A stretch of 64,000 bases of DNA, from contig NZ_CP097384.1 of assembly GCF_024584705.1 (NCBI RefSeq), positions 2,418,001-2,482,000 on the forward strand, in the 5' to 3' direction. Origin of the DNA: Blastopirellula sp. J2-11 (GTDB lineage Bacteria; Planctomycetota; Planctomycetia; Pirellulales; Pirellulaceae). The position numbers were made by a program, and so were the translations under genes. The notes beneath the pieces are model-generated. The model was given only the letters and a program-made list of their open reading frames with translations, was not told the DNA's origin and ran no database searches. This document shows, piece after piece, positions 3,764 to 43,568 of this stretch (position 1 is the first letter of the stretch; every line of letters starts with the position of its first letter).

Positions 3764-4831
3764 TTAGAGCCCGTTGTTTTCGGTTTGTAGTTGATTGACC
3801 AGTCGTTGCAGTCGCGCGACTTCCGCTTCCAGCTCAGCGACGCGGTTGCGCAGTTGAACGTTTTCGGTTTGATCTTGAACCGACGGAATCGGGTTCGCGC
3901 CCAATTCCGACAGCGCTCGGTTCAGCATCTGCATCGCTGGTCGATTGGAGAATGGGCCAACCTGCGGCGAATTGGGGGTCTCATTGACCAGGGTCGGCGG
4001 CTGACCGTCCAGGCGAACGTTTGATTGCAGCATCCGATTGCCGACGTAGTAGTTGATCGGCACATCACGATCGGCGGGCATCGTCGACAAGATCGAAAGT
4101 AGATCTTGCGGCTCATTCACGCGGCGATTGTTGAGCGCCACAATGACCGAACCGACCGGAATTCCGGCGAACGCCGCGGCGCCGCCAGGCGATACGCTTT
4201 CGACCACGGCTCCTCGTCGAACCGCCGTGCCGGTCGCTTCTCGATACTGATCAGTCACCGGAACGACCCGCACCCCCAATTTGCCGCGCTGGGCCGGTCG
4301 CGGGTTCGCCGGAGGCGGAAGCGGGTTGCTGTTCTCTTCTAGGCCGAGCGGATCAAGCGGATTGTTGTTGTTGCCGGTCGCGGGAGGATTGCTGCTGGCC
4401 GGGGGCGGCAACATTTCTGGAGCGGCGGGGCGTTTGCCCAGCGTGACCAGGATCGCCTGCGGCTCTCCGTTTCGCTCGACCGTGATCTTGATTCGCGAGC
4501 CGGGAACCTGATTGCGCATCAAGCGCGCGAACTGATCGAGACTTGTGACCGCCACGGTTTCGAGCGAAACGACGCGATCGCCGGCTTCCAGGCCGGCTTG
4601 TTCAGCTGGACCGCCTGGATTGACTTTCAAGACGATGATGCCGGAGCCTGGGGCGTTGTCAGGAAGATTATCGAGCGTCGCGCCCAGGTAACCAGGATTG
4701 GCGGGCGCCGGAGTTGGCGCCGGATCGCCCGGGGGGCGAATCAGATTTTGGAGTTGGTCCAAGGCCGTTTGGGCGTGCCCGAAGCTGGGAATCGCCAACA
4801 GGGCCGCTAAGGTCAAAATGAGGGTTCGCAT
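3764..4831 (-). CDS. Secreted protein with two PDZ domains and C-terminal coiled coil
   Basis: A 355-residue protein. Residues 1-20 (MRTLILTLAALLAIPSFGHA) form a signal peptide with an Ala-x-Ala type end. PDZ 1 spans about 45-135, with LGATLD, a GGPAEQAGLEAGD ligand-groove and loop region, and IKITVERNGEP. PDZ 2 spans about 180-275, with KLGVRVVPV and GGAAAFAGIPVGSVIVALN. A Pro/Asn-rich linker joins them. The last 35 residues form leucine heptads (VAELEAEVARLQRLVNQL), suggesting oligomers. No protease domain of the DegP or CtpA type is present, so it probably acts as a periplasmic scaffold. The acetyltransferase gene at 4990 is divergent. Confidence 0.85.
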   Translation of the reverse strand: MRTLILTLAALLAIPSFGHAQTALDQLQNLIRPPGDPAPTPAPANPGYLGATLDNLPDNAPGSGIIVLKVNPGGPAEQAGLEAGDRVVSLETVAVTSLDQFARLMRNQVPGSRIKITVERNGEPQAILVTLGKRPAAPEMLPPPASSNPPATGNNNNPLDPLGLEENSNPLPPPANPRPAQRGKLGVRVVPVTDQYREATGTAVRRGAVVESVSPGGAAAFAGIPVGSVIVALNNRRVNEPQDLLSILSTMPADRDVPINYYVGNRMLQSNVRLDGQPPTLVNETPNSPQVGPFSNRPAMQMLNRALSELGANPIPSVQDQTENVQLRNRVAELEAEVARLQRLVNQLQTENNGL

Positions 4832-35038: not shown

Positions 35039-36214
35039 TTATTGCCAATTCGACCGATATGCGCCCGGCGTAACGCCGGTAATCCGTTTGAACGCTGAGA
35101 CCAGTTTCGCGGCCGAAGAGTATGCCGTGTGGTGAGCGATGGCGATCAGCTTTAAATCGGTGTATCGCAGCAGCGCCTTGGCGTGATCAATTCTCACGCG
35201 GTCGATCTCTGATTTGATGCCGCGCCCCAATTCCTGTTGAAAGCGGCGATCCAGCGAGGAGCGGCTTAAGTGGAATTGGTTGGCGATCATTTCGACCGAT
35301 AGCCCGCTACAAGCATGCTCGTTGATATAGTGCACGATCGCGGCGACTTCACGATCAGCGATCGCCATCACGTCAGAGGAGCCGCGGACGATGATTCCCT
35401 TGGGTGGAATCAAAACGTGTTTCTCGACCTTCTCGTTCTTCATTAGCCGATCCAGGCTCGCGGCGCCTTCGTAACCGATGCGATGCGCATCGGGTTCGAT
35501 GCTGCTGAGCAGCGGCGTCACCAGATTGCAGATCGTCAGGTCGTTGTCGATTCCTAGCAGCGCGATATCTTCTGGAACAGCGACGCCGGCAAGTTTGCAA
35601 CTCATCAGGACTTGCCGCGCGCGAACGTCGTTGCAGCCGAGAATGCCGCAGGGACGCGGGAGACCTTGAACCCATTGGCCAAGTTCGTTGATTTCCGATT
35701 CTCCCAGCAGTTCACGAACCATCGCATCCCGATCCGCCTGGCCGCCGACAAAGCTATGCGTACGGCAACCATGTTGGTGGGCGATCTGCTCAAATGGCGC
35801 CGCTCGCAGGTCGGAAAAGTCGATTCCTGGATACCCGCAATAGGCGATATCTCGCAAACCTCGTTCGACAAAATGTTCGACAGCCATCTCGGCGCATGCG
35901 ACATGATCGGTATCAAAAGTCGCTCCCTGTTGGGGGAAGTAAGAGCCGCGCAGATCGACGGTCGGCTTGCCGAGCCGGTCAATCGTCTCCATTACGTCAT
36001 CCGTTTCGATGCGCGTGATGACGCCGTCGATATTCCAATGCTGAATTGCCTCGGGAAGCGCTTCATTCAAGCGCCGCTCGACATGCAGGATCTGCCAATT
36101 TCGGTGAATACGACAATAGTCGGCGACCCCTTGGAGGCACGCGCGACCATAGCCGCGCGACGATTCGATCAGCAGGAGCACAACTTGAGATCGTGGTAGC
36201 TTGCTCCGATTCAC
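35039..36214 (-). CDS. XylR-like AraC-family transcriptional regulator
   Basis: A 391-residue protein. The N-terminal 275 residues are a periplasmic-binding-like sensor (VVLLLIESSRGYGRACLQGVADYCR, DGVITRIETDD, CGILGCNDVRARQVL, PEDIALLGIDND), as in XylR. The C-terminal 100 residues form the AraC-type double helix-turn-helix with SVEMIANQFHLSRSSLDRRFQQELGRG and AYSSAAKLVSAFKRITGVTPGAYR. Its start codon overlaps the GH36 stop (ATGA), so it is the last gene of the operon that starts at the DUF1559 gene at 40410. It probably senses a sugar produced by the alpha-galactosidase and controls the operon. Confidence 0.9.
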   Translation of the reverse strand: MNRSKLPRSQVVLLLIESSRGYGRACLQGVADYCRIHRNWQILHVERRLNEALPEAIQHWNIDGVITRIETDDVMETIDRLGKPTVDLRGSYFPQQGATFDTDHVACAEMAVEHFVERGLRDIAYCGYPGIDFSDLRAAPFEQIAHQHGCRTHSFVGGQADRDAMVRELLGESEINELGQWVQGLPRPCGILGCNDVRARQVLMSCKLAGVAVPEDIALLGIDNDLTICNLVTPLLSSIEPDAHRIGYEGAASLDRLMKNEKVEKHVLIPPKGIIVRGSSDVMAIADREVAAIVHYINEHACSGLSVEMIANQFHLSRSSLDRRFQQELGRGIKSEIDRVRIDHAKALLRYTDLKLIAIAHHTAYSSAAKLVSAFKRITGVTPGAYRSNWQ

Positions 36215-38790
36215 GTTGCGTCATTCGCCGTAAATTCGAGGATCGTCGCTTGGATCGCTGCAGAAGTCGACAAGCGGACTCCCTGCTCCATCCATTCTTT
36301 TCCTAGCTTGGAGACGCCTGCTTCGGCCAGCGGCGGGCGTCCGGTCTGCGGATGGCGCTCGGTTAGGTGATAGCTTTTATGCGGATCGAGCCCTTGCGGC
36401 TTGGCCACGCGGGGCGTTTCTTCCGCCAGTTGATAGACAAAGAGGATTGCTCGGTCTTGTCCCTGCGCCACAAAGTTCACCACGCTACGTTTGCCATCAT
36501 GCGGCGATTCGATGCGGTACTGGTCGCCTAGATGAATGACGTCGCGGAACTTTTTATAGCTGGAAATCGCACTACGACAAGTTTCAATTTCTTCAGGAGA
36601 AAGAGCCGCCAGGTCGATATCCATTCCCATGCGGGCGCTCATCGAAACGGCGGTCGCAAAATGGAGCGGGCGCTCCCCCATTTTCGACGTATGACTGCAG
36701 ATCGAGATTGCCGGAAAGAAATAGGAATAATCCCATTGCAGCGCCACGCGACGCACGGCGTCCGTATTATCGCTCGGCCAAAACTCATGGAAATATCGCA
36801 ATGCGCCGTAGTCGACGCGACCGCCTCCGCCGGCGCATAGCATCAGTTCCGTGTGAGGGAATTCAACAGCCGTTTGCTGCATTAATTGGTAAAGGTTGTT
36901 CGTGTAGTCGATCCATAAATGGGTCTGTTTCCCCGACGTTAAAAAAGCGGATCCGGGCTGCGTAACATAGCGATTGGCGTCCCACTTGGCGCAGCTTACG
37001 CCACGAGTCTTTAGCGTCTCCTGAATCGCACTGTGCTCAAACTGTTGGACCTCGGGGCGCGTTAAATCGAGCACCAACTGCGTCCGCTGGTAGTCGAGTT
37101 CTCGCTGAGGCTGACGAATGACCCAGTCGGGATGCTGCTCGTACAGCACGCTCTGAGGATTTACCATCTCCGGTTCAATCCAAATCCCAAACCGCATGCC
37201 ATGTTGGATCGCCGATTGTGCGATCGGCTCCATTCCCTGCGGAAAACGGTTGGGGTTCGGTCGCCAGTCTCCTAGCCCGGCGCGATCATTGACACGCGGA
37301 TACTTGTCGCCAAACCAGCCGTCGTCGAGCAGGAAGAGCTCGAAGCCGACATCCGCCGCCGGCTGGAATAGGCTTTCGATCCGCTGTTGGTCAAAGTCAA
37401 AACCGGTCGCCTCCCAGTTGTTGAGCATTGTGTCACGCGGCTTGTCTCCGTCGCGAATCGCATGCTCCCGCGCCCAGCGATGAAATTTGCGGCTCATTTC
37501 GCCTAAGCCGTGATTGCTGCTCACCCAGATCATCGTCGGCGTTTGAAAGCTTTCGCCGGCGGACAAATGGTAGGTAGATCCTAGCGGATGGAGACCGCAG
37601 AGGGCTCGTACTTGCGAACCGTTATGCTCAAACGCCGCTCGAAAATTTCCGGACCAGGCCAGCGAACCGGCGATGACGCGGCCTCGATTTTCTTGCGGTT
37701 GGCCATCCAAGGAGAGCACCAACGAGGGGGCGACAAACTGAGTTGCACGGGTCCCCAGTAGCGATTCGATCGATTTGACGCCGGGAGTCAATTTCTCGGC
37801 GATCGGATTCATTTCGTCGGCCCAATCGCCGTGGAAATGTAATAGATGCAAATCGGGGGCGTTGAACAACCAGCTAGAGGACGCCATCCGCTCGAGCGCG
37901 ATCTCGCCTTCCCCCTGATGATGAATATGGCGCCATTCCTCGATCACGTCGTGGGCCGGATCAAGACGAAAATAGAGCTCAACCAATAGTGGGTAAACGT
38001 CATCTTGCAGGCGGATGCGAATCTGCTGACGTTCGTCATCAAGACTTGTGCGCTCAACATCCACAAAGCGGAGCGAGGTTGAGCGGTCGCCGTTTGCGTG
38101 GACCACTTGCAGCGCCGGCTCCCACACATACCCATCCCCACCCTGAGGATAGGCGACCTGGTTGCGGTTGGACGGTGATTTCTCTTCCGCTGCGCCAATG
38201 GGAGACTGGTAGAGCCGTCCATCTTCTCCCACGATAAAGCGGAGTTGAAACGACGCGGTTTTCAGATCGATCGTTTCGAACGGGGCAAGAACCTGCGGCA
38301 GAGGTTGGTCGTTGCGCAGCGTCAACTTTGCGTCAGCCCAATCGGCGTGATCGTGAGAACTGCCGTCGCCATTATCATCAACGACAAGTTCCAAGACGCT
38401 TACGTTGGCGACATCTAGATCAATCCGCTGGGCGGGGCTCTTTCCGGTGACTGGACCACTGTGAAAAATCAGTTTGCGATCCGCGAAGACTCGAAATTGT
38501 GCAGCGCCTTGCCCGCCAGCGCTATCGTCAATGCCGATGACGCTGCGAAATCGGAGTGCGTTCCGTTTAAGCTGCAGTCGTAGTCGACTAGATGCGTGCG
38601 TACCAATTCCTTGTGCGAATTTTTCGCCGCGGATCGAAAGCGCTTCGCCCATGATGTTGGCGTTCGCTTTCGGTACGCTCCATCCAGACGACATTTGTGA
38701 AAGATCTAAGGTCGACAGCGGAACGGTTTCGTTCGCCGCCGCAATATCTCCAAGACAAATCAGCCCAATAACAAGGCACAATTCACGCAT
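36211..38790 (-). CDS. Secreted GH36 alpha-galactosidase with N-terminal NPCBM domain
   Basis: An 859-residue protein with signal peptide MRELCLVIGLICLGDIAAA. Residues about 25-165 are a NPCBM carbohydrate-binding domain (KANANIMGEALSIRGEKFAQGIGTH ... LELVVDDNGDG). The GH36 beta-supersandwich and catalytic barrel follow, with MLNNWEATGFDF, WFGDKYPRVNDRAGLGDW, CAKWDANRYV (nucleophile Asp604) and FWPSDNTDA (acid/base Asp674). It cleaves terminal alpha-galactosides outside the cytoplasm. The gene is read from the same operon as the lipoprotein 17 bases upstream and overlaps the XylR regulator. Confidence 0.93.
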   Translation of the reverse strand: MRELCLVIGLICLGDIAAANETVPLSTLDLSQMSSGWSVPKANANIMGEALSIRGEKFAQGIGTHASSRLRLQLKRNALRFRSVIGIDDSAGGQGAAQFRVFADRKLIFHSGPVTGKSPAQRIDLDVANVSVLELVVDDNGDGSSHDHADWADAKLTLRNDQPLPQVLAPFETIDLKTASFQLRFIVGEDGRLYQSPIGAAEEKSPSNRNQVAYPQGGDGYVWEPALQVVHANGDRSTSLRFVDVERTSLDDERQQIRIRLQDDVYPLLVELYFRLDPAHDVIEEWRHIHHQGEGEIALERMASSSWLFNAPDLHLLHFHGDWADEMNPIAEKLTPGVKSIESLLGTRATQFVAPSLVLSLDGQPQENRGRVIAGSLAWSGNFRAAFEHNGSQVRALCGLHPLGSTYHLSAGESFQTPTMIWVSSNHGLGEMSRKFHRWAREHAIRDGDKPRDTMLNNWEATGFDFDQQRIESLFQPAADVGFELFLLDDGWFGDKYPRVNDRAGLGDWRPNPNRFPQGMEPIAQSAIQHGMRFGIWIEPEMVNPQSVLYEQHPDWVIRQPQRELDYQRTQLVLDLTRPEVQQFEHSAIQETLKTRGVSCAKWDANRYVTQPGSAFLTSGKQTHLWIDYTNNLYQLMQQTAVEFPHTELMLCAGGGGRVDYGALRYFHEFWPSDNTDAVRRVALQWDYSYFFPAISICSHTSKMGERPLHFATAVSMSARMGMDIDLAALSPEEIETCRSAISSYKKFRDVIHLGDQYRIESPHDGKRSVVNFVAQGQDRAILFVYQLAEETPRVAKPQGLDPHKSYHLTERHPQTGRPPLAEAGVSKLGKEWMEQGVRLSTSAAIQATILEFTANDAT

Positions 38791-39369: not shown

Positions 39370-40410
39370 TTAGGAGCGATTCACTTCGCCGCCGCTCACC
39401 GTTCCGAGGCCTCCCCAAACTCCGTAGTTGGATGCCCCATTGGAAGGGGCCAGCGATTGATTCCCTGCATCGATGGTATCCGTAAAGAAACGAACCGATC
39501 CGTCTCCCATCGCACCGTTCACTCCGCCTGGGTGATAACTGGTCGCCGAAATAATCGCCTGGCGTCCGTCCCAGTCGTCCAGCAAGCACGACGGACTGTT
39601 TGGCGGCAAGATCGCTAGAACTCCGGAATAAAGGGGCGCTCCGTCCGCCCAGCGACGTCCAGGGTATTCTTTCACCGTCACGCTGCTCAGATAGTTTCCG
39701 CTCTGTCCCCGTTTGGCGGCGCAGCTGGCAGGGGTAACGTCATATTCCGATCCGCTGTTCCACACGTCCGAAGCGATCGCGACGCCTCCCCGGATTTTCA
39801 TCGTGCTCACTTCACCGACGGCTCGTTCTCCGAGGGCCAGCGTATTGCTCAATCCATCGGTGACGCTGGCGAAATTCTTCCAGCTATGGAAGCCGAACAT
39901 GCCGCTCGTTGGGTTGGTCGAGCCTGCCCATGCCGGCCGGTCTCCCATGCTGAACGCATAGTTCGAGAATCCAAAGTCACTCTCGGCCGGAGTCGCCGGA
40001 TCGGACGGACAGCGGAGAAACGAAAGCTTGGTCAGCCATGGCGTATAGCTGCTGTTCCACGGATTGTCGCCATATGGCGGATAGGTGGTCGAATCGATCG
40101 TCAGCGATGACGTGATTTGGTTGTACAGTGATCCTTGTTCGACAAACGGCAGCAGCGCAACCCAGCCGCCTAGGCGATTGTCATTGTGGATCGGACCATT
40201 GCCGGTGCCGCCGCACATCGCCGGCAGCTTGCCGAAGGTGTCATGGTAGTTGTGCAGCGCCAGGCCCGCTTGCTTCAGATTGTTGGTGCATTGCATGCGG
40301 CGAGCGGCCTCGCGGGCTTGTTGAACCGCCGGCAGCAACAAAGCAATCAAAACGCCGATGATCGCAATGACGACCAGGAGTTCGACGAGAGTGAAAGCAT
40401 TCTTTCTCAT
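39370..40410 (-). CDS. DUF1559 pseudopilin-like protein 3
   Basis: A 346-residue protein from ATG 40410, with a very short leader, MRKNA, before [14 protein letters not shown]. It lacks the usual glycine just before FTLVE (alanine is present), so processing by the prepilin peptidase, which prefers Gly, may be slower or altered. Body: [50 protein letters not shown] and [12 protein letters not shown] (H-X9-DG). First gene of the GH36/XylR operon. The frame upstream to 40500 is not supported. Confidence 0.9.
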
Positions 40411-41035
40411 GATTTTTCTCGGTAATGAATGAGTGCCAAAATTTGGGAATGAAATGCCAATCGGCGTTCTGGATAGATGTTTCTGGGGGATTTTGCCCAC
40501 GTAAAATACGTCTTTACGGAAGTCTATCTAGGGTATCGCGGAAGAATCAACTAATCCGCGACCCCACCACTGAGCGTAAGTAGAGGTCATTCGAGACTCC
40601 ATTAAGCTGGTTTTATCGAATGGGAACTTCCATTGAGGATTTCGACGGAAGTGAATAGTCGTTCGTAAGTTATTTGTTTGTAAGTGATTACAGAGATTGT
40701 TCGCTAGCCACGTTCTGATGAGAAACTTCTACAACGGTAGCGCACCATTTTTTTGCCCTCTCGCAAGACTTCGGAAACCCGTGACGAAAAAGGGAAAGAT
40801 GTTGACGATTTTCGGACACAGGTATCCCGCTGCCTATCGTCCTTGGATCAAGGCGAAGAAGAATTTGACCGCGCGCCGTCGAGCGAAACGGGCGATCCAT
40901 TCATGTCGCGTAGAACACCCAACGTTTTAAGCTTTGGCGCTTCTGGATCTCTTGGCGCACGCTAACTCGGTCCGCTCTTTTGAAACTGCGATATTTGCCA
41001 ACCTGGAAATCGCGTTTCAAAACTGGCGGCTTACG
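40411..41035. other. Gap with no recognised gene
   Basis: This 625-base gap precedes the DUF1559/GH36 operon and follows the uvsE fusion gene (both minus strand). It has an imperfect hairpin at 40978-41022 (TTTTGAAAC / GTTTCAAAA plus GCGAT / ATCGC), a possible terminator without a T-run. ORFs at 40697-40965 look random. Confidence 0.5.
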
Positions 41036-42202
41036 CTACGAGAGAAGTCTGTTGGTGATCAACGACTCTTTCGCCGCCCGCGACAACGCTTTGATCGCCA
41101 ACTCGCGCTTCAGCGCCGCGCTTTGATTCGGCTGCGACTCTTGATAGACCACCACGACCGGCAGTCGGCTGCGCGTGTATCGGGCGCCTGTGCCGGCGTT
41201 GTGTTTGGCGATGCGCTGCGGCAGGTCGTTGGTGACGCCGGTATAAAGGGATTGGTCGGCGCATTGCAGGATGTAGACGGTCCAGGGGCGCGCTAGTTGC
41301 TTCATCAGCTTCAGCACGGCGACTTCTTTCGCCTTGGCTTCGACTTCGACGGTCAATGTCCGCTCGCGCCAGCAGTCGGGAAAATCGACGATGTTGATAA
41401 AGTCATGGTGGCGACCCGGCTTCGGCCCTTTCCAGCCTTCCAGCGGACTAGAGAGATGAAACAGCGGCTCGCGATCCCAGGTCTCGATCGCCTGCTCGGT
41501 CGCTGCTTCGATCGACAAATCGTCACGATTGCAGCGATGATGGTGAACATCATAGACCAACGGAATGCCGGTCGACTGGCAAAGCGGCAGCAGATCCGCA
41601 GGCGTATAGGTGACGTCATCATTTTCGACCGTCAAGCGGCTGCGAGCTCGCTGCGAAAGACGCGACAACGACTTTGCGAACCGCGACAGGGCCGCAGGTT
41701 TGTCTCCATACGCACCGCCACCATGGATGTTGACGACATCGGCCCTGACCCACTCTGCGACTTCGGCTTGATATTCCAGCTCTGCAAGCGAGCGATCGAC
41801 GACTTCCGGCCGCGGCGAATTGAGCACCACAAATTGATCGGGATGAAAACAGGTGCGAATATCGTTTGACTTCGCGAACGCGCCGCAGGCTTGAAATTGC
41901 CGGACGATCTCGTCACCATCGGGAAGCTCGCTCACATCGTACCCGCATTCCGCATGCGTCTTCAGCGGCAAGATCTGGCTATTGATCCGAAACGAGCCGA
42001 TCCCCTGCTCTGCACAAAACTGCAACGCCAAAAGCAACGCATCGGCGTTCGCCAGGCAAAGCCCAGACAACTTGGCCAAGCCGGCGTCCCGCGGCATGGC
42101 GCTGATCGATTTGACAGTGGTGTTGCGAAACTTGATCGGCTGCTCGAGAAAAATGCAGCAGAGACCGAGGCGAATGTTTGTGGTGGAAGACGAGGCTGAC
42201 AT
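41036..42202 (-). CDS. UV damage endonuclease (UvsE/UVDE) fused to a GIY-YIG nuclease domain
   Basis: A 388-residue protein from ATG 42202 (MSASSSTTNIRLGLC). Residues 10-300 are the UvsE TIM barrel: FRNTTVKSIS and LALQFCAEQGIGSFRINSQILPL, then metal-site residues in CFHPDQF (His120), VVNIHGGG (His160), TVENDD (Glu193), YDVHHHR (Asp218, His220/221), GRHHDFIN (His265/266) and VEVEAKAKE (Glu286/288). Residues 307-388 are a complete UPF0213/YhbQ-like GIY-YIG domain: WTVYILQC, LYTGVTND, Arg330, and LKREL with Glu367. The joint at about 300-306 has almost no linker. The two domains would nick 5' of UV lesions and elsewhere. The gene stands alone. Confidence 0.88.
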   Translation of the reverse strand: MSASSSTTNIRLGLCCIFLEQPIKFRNTTVKSISAMPRDAGLAKLSGLCLANADALLLALQFCAEQGIGSFRINSQILPLKTHAECGYDVSELPDGDEIVRQFQACGAFAKSNDIRTCFHPDQFVVLNSPRPEVVDRSLAELEYQAEVAEWVRADVVNIHGGGAYGDKPAALSRFAKSLSRLSQRARSRLTVENDDVTYTPADLLPLCQSTGIPLVYDVHHHRCNRDDLSIEAATEQAIETWDREPLFHLSSPLEGWKGPKPGRHHDFINIVDFPDCWRERTLTVEVEAKAKEVAVLKLMKQLARPWTVYILQCADQSLYTGVTNDLPQRIAKHNAGTGARYTRSRLPVVVVYQESQPNQSAALKRELAIKALSRAAKESLITNRLLS

Positions 42203-42332: not shown

Positions 42333-43568
42333 CTAAGGCGCAGCGTTAGGCTTCGACCATTGGATGCGCGAAAGATAGAGACTCGGTTCTCCTGATTTGG
42401 CCCTGCTGCGGCCGGCGACCACCCAAGTCTCCTCCGGCGAGATGTTGGACAAGCCAAAGTTGCCGAAGCCGTCCTTTAGTTTCGGCAAGAGCGTCTGTTC
42501 GGTCTGGCGAAGTACGACCAGCTTTTGGGGGTCGACTTGCGCGATGAATAGCGGAGCCCGGTGGCGAAAGATGTCATCGTTGTCCGCGCCTTTTCTGGTG
42601 TAGGCGAGAAACAGGCCATCCGAATGGGTCACCCAATGTTGTTGTGTGTTGTAACTTCCGAGCGGTTGACCGTCGTCAAAGGCCCACGGCTTGGGCTTAT
42701 CGAAGTGAAGCCCGTCTTGGCTGGTCGTGACATAGGCTCCACGGTCATTGCGCAGCGTGAGAAAAAAAGTCTCCCCAAACTTGGTGAGCGAAGGCTCGAC
42801 AAAGCCTCGGTCGATGTCAATGGATAGCGCATTTCCTTGTTCTTCGACGCGAAGCGTTTTCCCATCAAACTGACAGCGAAGCACCATCGCAAAGTGGCGG
42901 CTATCGTTTCCTGCGCCTCCAAAATAGATCGGTAGCAAGATGTCGCCATTCGGAAGATCGTAACGCTGCGAGCAGCCGGAGCGAGCGAAATGGAACTGGG
43001 GCGAATCTGGTAGCTCGACTTTTTTCCACGGAGCCCATTGATGCGTGCGGGGATCATAGGCCGAATAAGCGATGTCGCTGCCGCCGTTAGGAGCATGTTT
43101 CTTCAGCTTGGGATCAAGCCAAAACGTTGCGCCAGTTAGTAGCAACTTGCCTGACTTTGCGTGCCACTGTGGGGTCATGTCGACCGGAACCTCAATCAAC
43201 CCGTTCGCCATGGTGCGACGATCCAGCGCCGGATCTTGTTGCGGACCTTGCCAGGAGTTGCCGTGATCGTCGGACCACATGCTGCTCATGCCGTGGTACA
43301 TGTGCGTGCCGTTTCCATCAATCGCTTGCAGCGTGATGACCTCCAGGGGCTGATCTGCGCTGGGTTCGCCTGGGCGCTTTGGTATCTTGCCTGGGCGAGC
43401 TTGCATCCAGTAAGTGCCATCGTCCGGCGCATTCAAGGGAGTTTCGACCGTGATCGATTTGATAAGCAGTTCCTCGGCCTGGCTAACAGCCGGCAGCAAT
43501 GCCAGGCAAAGGAGAACGGCGCAGAATTTATTGCCCAAGAGGGCAATTTGATGAAACGGAATCGGCAT
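42333..43568 (-). CDS. Secreted sialidase/neuraminidase-like BNR protein
   Basis: A 411-residue protein starting MPIPFHQIALLGNKFCAVLLCLALLPAVSQAEE, a signal peptide. It has Asp-box style turns (SMWSDDHGNSWQGP, TTSQDGLHF) and the phrases SDIAYSAYDPRTHQWAPWKKV and GDILLPIYFGGAGND typical of six-bladed sialidase-fold proteins. The arginine triad is not convincingly identifiable, so activity on sialic acid is not certain; related planctomycete proteins act on other glycans. It is the last gene of the operon that runs from DUF1559 gene 4 through the aldolase. Confidence 0.78.
   Translation of the reverse strand: MPIPFHQIALLGNKFCAVLLCLALLPAVSQAEELLIKSITVETPLNAPDDGTYWMQARPGKIPKRPGEPSADQPLEVITLQAIDGNGTHMYHGMSSMWSDDHGNSWQGPQQDPALDRRTMANGLIEVPVDMTPQWHAKSGKLLLTGATFWLDPKLKKHAPNGGSDIAYSAYDPRTHQWAPWKKVELPDSPQFHFARSGCSQRYDLPNGDILLPIYFGGAGNDSRHFAMVLRCQFDGKTLRVEEQGNALSIDIDRGFVEPSLTKFGETFFLTLRNDRGAYVTTSQDGLHFDKPKPWAFDDGQPLGSYNTQQHWVTHSDGLFLAYTRKGADNDDIFRHRAPLFIAQVDPQKLVVLRQTEQTLLPKLKDGFGNFGLSNISPEETWVVAGRSRAKSGEPSLYLSRIQWSKPNAAP

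Follow-up and report, generated by a model that had tools for sequence, protein, structure and literature searches.

A single-frame fusion of a UvsE-type barrel and a GIY-YIG domain that recurs among Planctomycetota

The window analyzed here is a stretch of 64,000 nucleotides from the genome of Blastopirellula sp. J2-11 (NZ_CP097384.1, positions 2,418,001 to 2,482,000). It contains a gene whose frame begins with ATG and runs through 388 codons without an internal stop, just as the initial annotation of this DNA had described it (Table 1). An alternative TTG start upstream would give a protein of 404 amino acids. The gene is flanked by those for a BNR-repeat protein (42333–43568) and a DUF1559 protein (39370–40500), all three lying on the minus strand. 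Elsewhere in the window (35039–38790, minus strand), a XylR/AraC-type regulator adjoins a GH36 melibiase-type protein with an NPCBM domain.

Table 1. Coordinates of the fusion gene and its parts within the window
Feature	Position	Strand	Remarks
uvsE–GIY-YIG fusion gene	41036..42202	–	388 aa; range includes the stop codon
UvsE/UvdE TIM-barrel part	41294..42172	–	about residues 11–303; PF03851 31–277, TIGR00629 21–303; invariant residues start at R11
Junction	41285..41293	–	residues 304–306; near the C-terminus of most barrel-only relatives
GIY-YIG domain of Slx1/UPF0213 type	41039..41284	–	residues 307–388; PF01541 307–378; relatives 1zg2/1ywl

Profile searches divide the product into two domains. 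The Pfam UvdE model (PF03851) and the NCBIfam model TIGR00629 (uvde) score 203.5 and 186.9 bits, above their curated cut-offs of 24 and 124.45, which places the barrel in the UvsE/UvdE family. The Pfam GIY-YIG model (PF01541) scores 58.2 bits on the C-terminal part against a cut-off of 22.6. Because 59 of 66 non-fused sequences come to a stop at most 20 residues away from where the barrel match ends, and the Pfam GIY-YIG match starts directly after the junction given in Table 1, the joint comprises only a few residues, in keeping with the short linker first proposed. These data confirm that a UvsE-type barrel and a GIY-YIG domain form a genuine single-frame fusion.

Solved relatives of the barrel are the UV damage endonucleases 3tc3/4gle, 2j6v and 3bzj, of which we take the first pair to be from Sulfolobus acidocaldarius and the other two from Thermus thermophilus. 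We assume the metal ligands of Thermus UvsE to be H69, H101, H143, E175, D200, H203, H231 and H244; these numbers are off from the chain's own count, and one constant shift of 21, chosen post hoc, aligns all eight with identical residues of the query (H83, H120, H160, E193, D218, H221, H249 and H265). Hence the barrel with visible metal ligands that had been noted at the outset is upheld. The Sulfolobus chain has an Asp at the position of H249. K229 of the Thermus enzyme is presumably a modified lysine, and with the same shift of 21 the query has Leu247 at this position. Since 3bzj has Leu there too and the Sulfolobus chain has Met, we do not treat K229 as a strict mark of the UvsE family. Overall, the barrel resembles UvsE/UVDE enzymes of known structure (2j6v/3bzj, 3tc3/4gle) in its fold family, its metal-ligand positions and its TIGR00629 score. 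It differs in Leu247, in the added C-terminal nuclease, and in falling far below the cut-off of the narrower UvsE model NF002640 (176.8 versus 456).

The second domain has the motif of the GIY-YIG superfamily, with YTG instead of YIG in the second box, along with the catalytic Tyr, Arg, His and Glu. Tyr310, Arg330 and Glu367, the residues originally singled out, are invariant in all 31 aligned fusion rows (30 distinct), as are Tyr320, Gly322 and His334. Among solved structures, the domain matches the UPF0213 chains 1zg2 and 1ywl (60.7 and 55.9 bits) and, weakly, an SLX1 chain titled structure-specific nuclease (E 0.034); no UvrC chain is found among these matches up to E 10. In the survey by Dunin-Horkawicz (2006, PMC1564403), 1zg2 and 1ywl are counted in the Slx1 family, apart from UvrC, and a conserved C-terminal Asn is given as a mark of the UvrC+ lineage. 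No such conserved Asn is seen in the fusions, where K371 and K378 are the sole invariant residues past E367 in the 31 rows. These comparisons assign the second domain to the Slx1/UPF0213 type, and a UvrC-type domain was rejected as its closest kin.

The C-terminal domain thus resembles YhbQ-like Slx1/UPF0213 proteins, but 1zg2 and 1ywl are small standalone proteins, whereas the Blastopirellula domain is joined to UvsE. With UvrC/Cho, the fusion would share the use of a GIY-YIG nuclease in damage excision. It differs in its GIY-YIG lineage and in that Pfam finds in it neither an RNase H domain nor a UVR (UvrB-binding) motif, both of which are present in the UvrC that the genome separately encodes. 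Slx1-type enzymes act on branched DNA, and Ssn of Neisseria represents a family of GIY-YIG enzymes specific for single-stranded DNA, to which we give no weight here.

The initial annotation called for a search for homologues with the same C-terminal domain, and the fusion does recur. Among the best 80 of 117 related genome_contigs loci, 29 are fused (L034–L059, L062, L063 and L075), 49 are barrel-only, one has a half-deleted GIY-YIG domain (L068) and one is cut by a contig end before the junction (L110). L052, L063 and L075 lie at contig ends and have no start. The fused protein of Blastopirellula marina (L034) is 89% identical. The distinct fused sequences number 34, namely 30 from the 31 aligned rows, which include one identical pair, plus L052, L063, L075 and L142; L141, L117 and L118 duplicate L039, L038 and L056. 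The presence of the same fusion in separate genomes excludes a sequencing accident or local frameshift, an outcome that would have undone the original claim. In three overlapping genome samples, the fusion was intact in 6 and decayed in one (G021) of 98 relatives searched (the window's own genome included), and was present in 8 of the 33 genomes with any match at E 1e-30 from a sample of 396 of the order and in 5 of the 25 with any match from 392 of the phylum. All fused sequences are from Planctomycetota wherever the phylum can be read from record titles, which for metagenome-assembled genomes may be wrong (L043 is titled just 'bacterium'). Barrel-only relatives come also from Verrucomicrobiota and other phyla. 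The query matched 129 phage records, and none among the 15 matches listed covers 80% of it. Three loci on IMG/VR viral contigs of 68–173 kb (L114, L115 and L116) all encode a barrel-only UvsE of planctomycete type, and in the tree of barrels L114 has the fused rows L040 and L050 as neighbours.

The genome of the window also encodes UvrA (four matches over the cut-off in three open frames), UvrB and UvrC. One 2371-codon open frame contains two UvrA-like units (G000:C1:6383707–6389547), the two other UvrA matches lying elsewhere. UvrC (L003:463–1845, minus strand) has only 460 amino acids, and the domains that Pfam finds in it are limited to its GIY-YIG, RNase H and UVR parts. A photolyase-like open reading frame (L134), which we take by its motifs to be of class II, scores 21.3 bits in Pfam, below the cut-off of 26.6. 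The idea of a self-contained system independent of UvrABC is not supported in the form first put forward: with UvrA, UvrB and UvrC in the same genome, we rejected the fusion as a replacement for UvrABC and regard it as an addition, and together with L134 this makes it an added repair route. Deinococcus radiodurans is likewise described as having UvsE alongside UvrABC (PMC8837605). No conserved repair neighbour or operon was found across 26 fused loci, the commonest neighbour family occurring in 5 of them.

Both domains are constrained. For ten close pairs (nine computable for each domain), dN/dS ranged from 0.07 to 0.12 for the barrel and from 0.06 to 0.34 for the GIY-YIG domain, the value of 0.34 belonging to the pair whose dS is lowest. 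The GIY-YIG value was the higher in 7 of 9 pairs. Median pN/pS across 435 pairs was 0.24 and 0.26, respectively. These values indicate clear purifying selection on the GIY-YIG domain, somewhat weaker than that on the barrel. Across 30 fusions, barrel and GIY-YIG distances are correlated (Mantel r 0.56, with none of 5000 permutations as high), which fits the two domains being mostly inherited together.

In the barrel tree, the 30 fused rows lie within two parts (20 and 31 rows, each weakly supported with an SH-aLRT of 80), with barrel-only rows interspersed among them. The joint is mostly short, as in the window, in one of these parts and 2–6 residues longer in the other, L055 being 8 longer. 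A single origin as one clade was rejected with a p-AU of 0.0003 when the barrel was used (32 rows including L010 and L068 versus 64, in a quick tree without L018). Rejection was weaker with the GIY-YIG domain (p-AU 0.002; 0.012 once a standalone copy in L044 was removed), using 86 columns and leaving out L066, a fragment, and L031 and L032, which have long branches. Since one-clade trees are rejected for both domains, several fusions, losses or transfers lie behind the fused rows, the 86 columns not separating these.

Loss of the GIY-YIG domain is seen directly in two loci. L010 has a stop and altered motif residues just beyond the barrel, and L068 has lost the first half of the domain to a deletion; the barrel frame is open in both. 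Given these two cases and the 49 barrel-only loci among the best 80 of 117, the second domain is dispensable. No GIY-YIG remnant was found by eye past the barrel in L064, L067, L070, L076, L080, L145, L146, L151, L157 or L158. A genome from the same family contains broken UvsE pieces with several stops (L030, G042:C17), one of these pieces extending to query residue 345–350.

A standalone GIY-YIG relative occurs in 14 of 98 genomes. In L044, such an open reading frame (4091–4486, plus strand) precedes the fused gene by about 1.5 kb and groups with the fused rows L048 and L053 (98/84). The lead-in of this frame is similar to the linker of the fused genes (47 bases at 74%, E 0.004, an E value equaled by a 17-base match in another row), and the frame may be a copy that lacks the barrel. 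None of the six genomes with an intact fusion has a second match at E 1e-8, and G021 has one, these numbers being small. Apart from the fusion, GIY-YIG matches in the genome of the window are limited to UvrC and a protein with DUF4357 (L002:1273–2181, plus strand). An operon precursor, with uvsE beside a separate GIY-YIG gene, was also considered and rejected: no GIY-YIG gene lies directly behind the barrel in the 49 barrel-only loci among the best 80 of 117, whose flanks vary in length, some ending soon after the gene. The sole case among them with one nearby is L066, where a partial GIY-YIG lies about 2.7 kb away on the opposite strand. L019 was considered as a standalone GIY-YIG gene that had kept remains of a barrel, and a follow-up check gave this no support.

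UVDE is described as incising 5' of both CPD and 6-4PP (PMC8307549), and of DNA nicked by Uvde in fission yeast it is said that the FEN1 homologue Rad2 'could help to process' it (PMC8620282). Based on these precedents and on the action of Slx1-type enzymes, we tentatively favor, at somewhat short of an even chance, a reading in which a planctomycete UvsE has gained a C-terminal Slx1/UPF0213-type nuclease and works alongside UvrABC. The barrel would bind the photoproduct and nick 5' of it, leaving a 3'-OH. A polymerase or helicase would then displace the lesion-bearing strand 3' of the nick as a flap, and the tethered GIY-YIG domain would cut this branched or single-stranded DNA on the 3' side of the lesion, much as suggested for Rad2. 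We count in favor of this flap removal the fusion in 29 of the best 80 of 117 loci, the invariant catalytic residues of the GIY-YIG domain and its match to UPF0213 chains, the eight metal-ligand positions kept in the barrel, the selection on both domains and their correlated distances. Against it, we count the higher GIY-YIG dN/dS in most pairs and the lack of a conserved repair neighbour across the fused loci. Moreover, the 5' nuclease of Pol I would ordinarily remove such a flap, and coupling of the two domains is not required, as is evident from the decay in L010 and L068 and from the barrel-only loci. The broader proposal that one polypeptide excises the damage, with a UvsE cut 5' and a GIY-YIG cut 3' on the same strand, in duplex or flap and without UvrABC or a separate flap nuclease, likewise has a chance somewhat below even. 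UvsE-started repair produces a nick that leaves the lesion in place, so something must remove the lesion strand, and the recurrent fusion is a candidate for this step. If true, two steps of damage removal may reside in one molecule, and with one two-domain enzyme their coupling is accessible to point mutants.

Several other readings bear on the same data. In closed duplex, UvsE could make a cut 5' and the GIY-YIG domain one 3' of the lesion, so that an oligonucleotide is released as with UvrC. Both domains retain their catalytic residues, and the GIY-YIG domain of UvrC is stated to make its 3' cut (PMC8307549, PMC8837605), but an Slx1/UPF0213-type domain in a fusion for which Pfam reports neither a UVR motif nor an RNase H part, in a genome that has uvrA, uvrB and uvrC, makes such dual incision improbable and less supported than flap removal. 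A serious contender, though we rate it below flap removal, is that the two domains are linked physically but share no reaction: the GIY-YIG domain could have its own job (e.g. on branched or single-stranded DNA elsewhere) or could be a mobile domain inserted in frame. Some GIY-YIG fusions may indeed reflect domain mobility (PMC1564403), and the decayed and half-deleted domains, the standalone L044 copy with its linker-like lead-in, the standalone relatives in other genomes and the rejection of one fused clade for either domain all agree with this; recurrence, purifying selection and correlated domain distances speak against it. End-to-end fusion over a short linker is also compatible with a mere DNA-binding or positioning module for UvsE. 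Invariance of the catalytic Tyr, Arg, His and Glu in all 31 rows is not expected for binding alone, however, which leaves this reading very unlikely. As for a sequencing or gene-calling artefact, nothing was seen in its favor, the same fusion is found in separate assemblies, and the genome of the window and G030 are each a single contig, so its probability is negligible.

The initial annotation knew of no description of this fusion, and we likewise found none in the titles and abstract beginnings listed in searches of open-licence PMC papers; automated annotation may already record this domain combination. The main text of the 2006 survey (PMC1564403) does not mention UvdE/UvsE, and representatives of three UvdE clusters are said to have no remarkable extensions (PMC10140301). 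GIY-YIG fusions to repair proteins are already known, and what appears to be new here is UvsE as the partner. The 2006 survey includes a plant MutS homologue with a C-terminal Slx1-like GIY-YIG domain (CHM locus, Arabidopsis) and archaeal COG1833, in which GIY-YIG is joined to an endonuclease III-type domain (PMC1564403); both pair a repair-type protein with GIY-YIG, as here, but with a different partner. A Vibrio phage encodes both UVDE and a UvrC/Cho-type GIY-YIG domain (ORF 31), which are discussed separately (PMC10152775).
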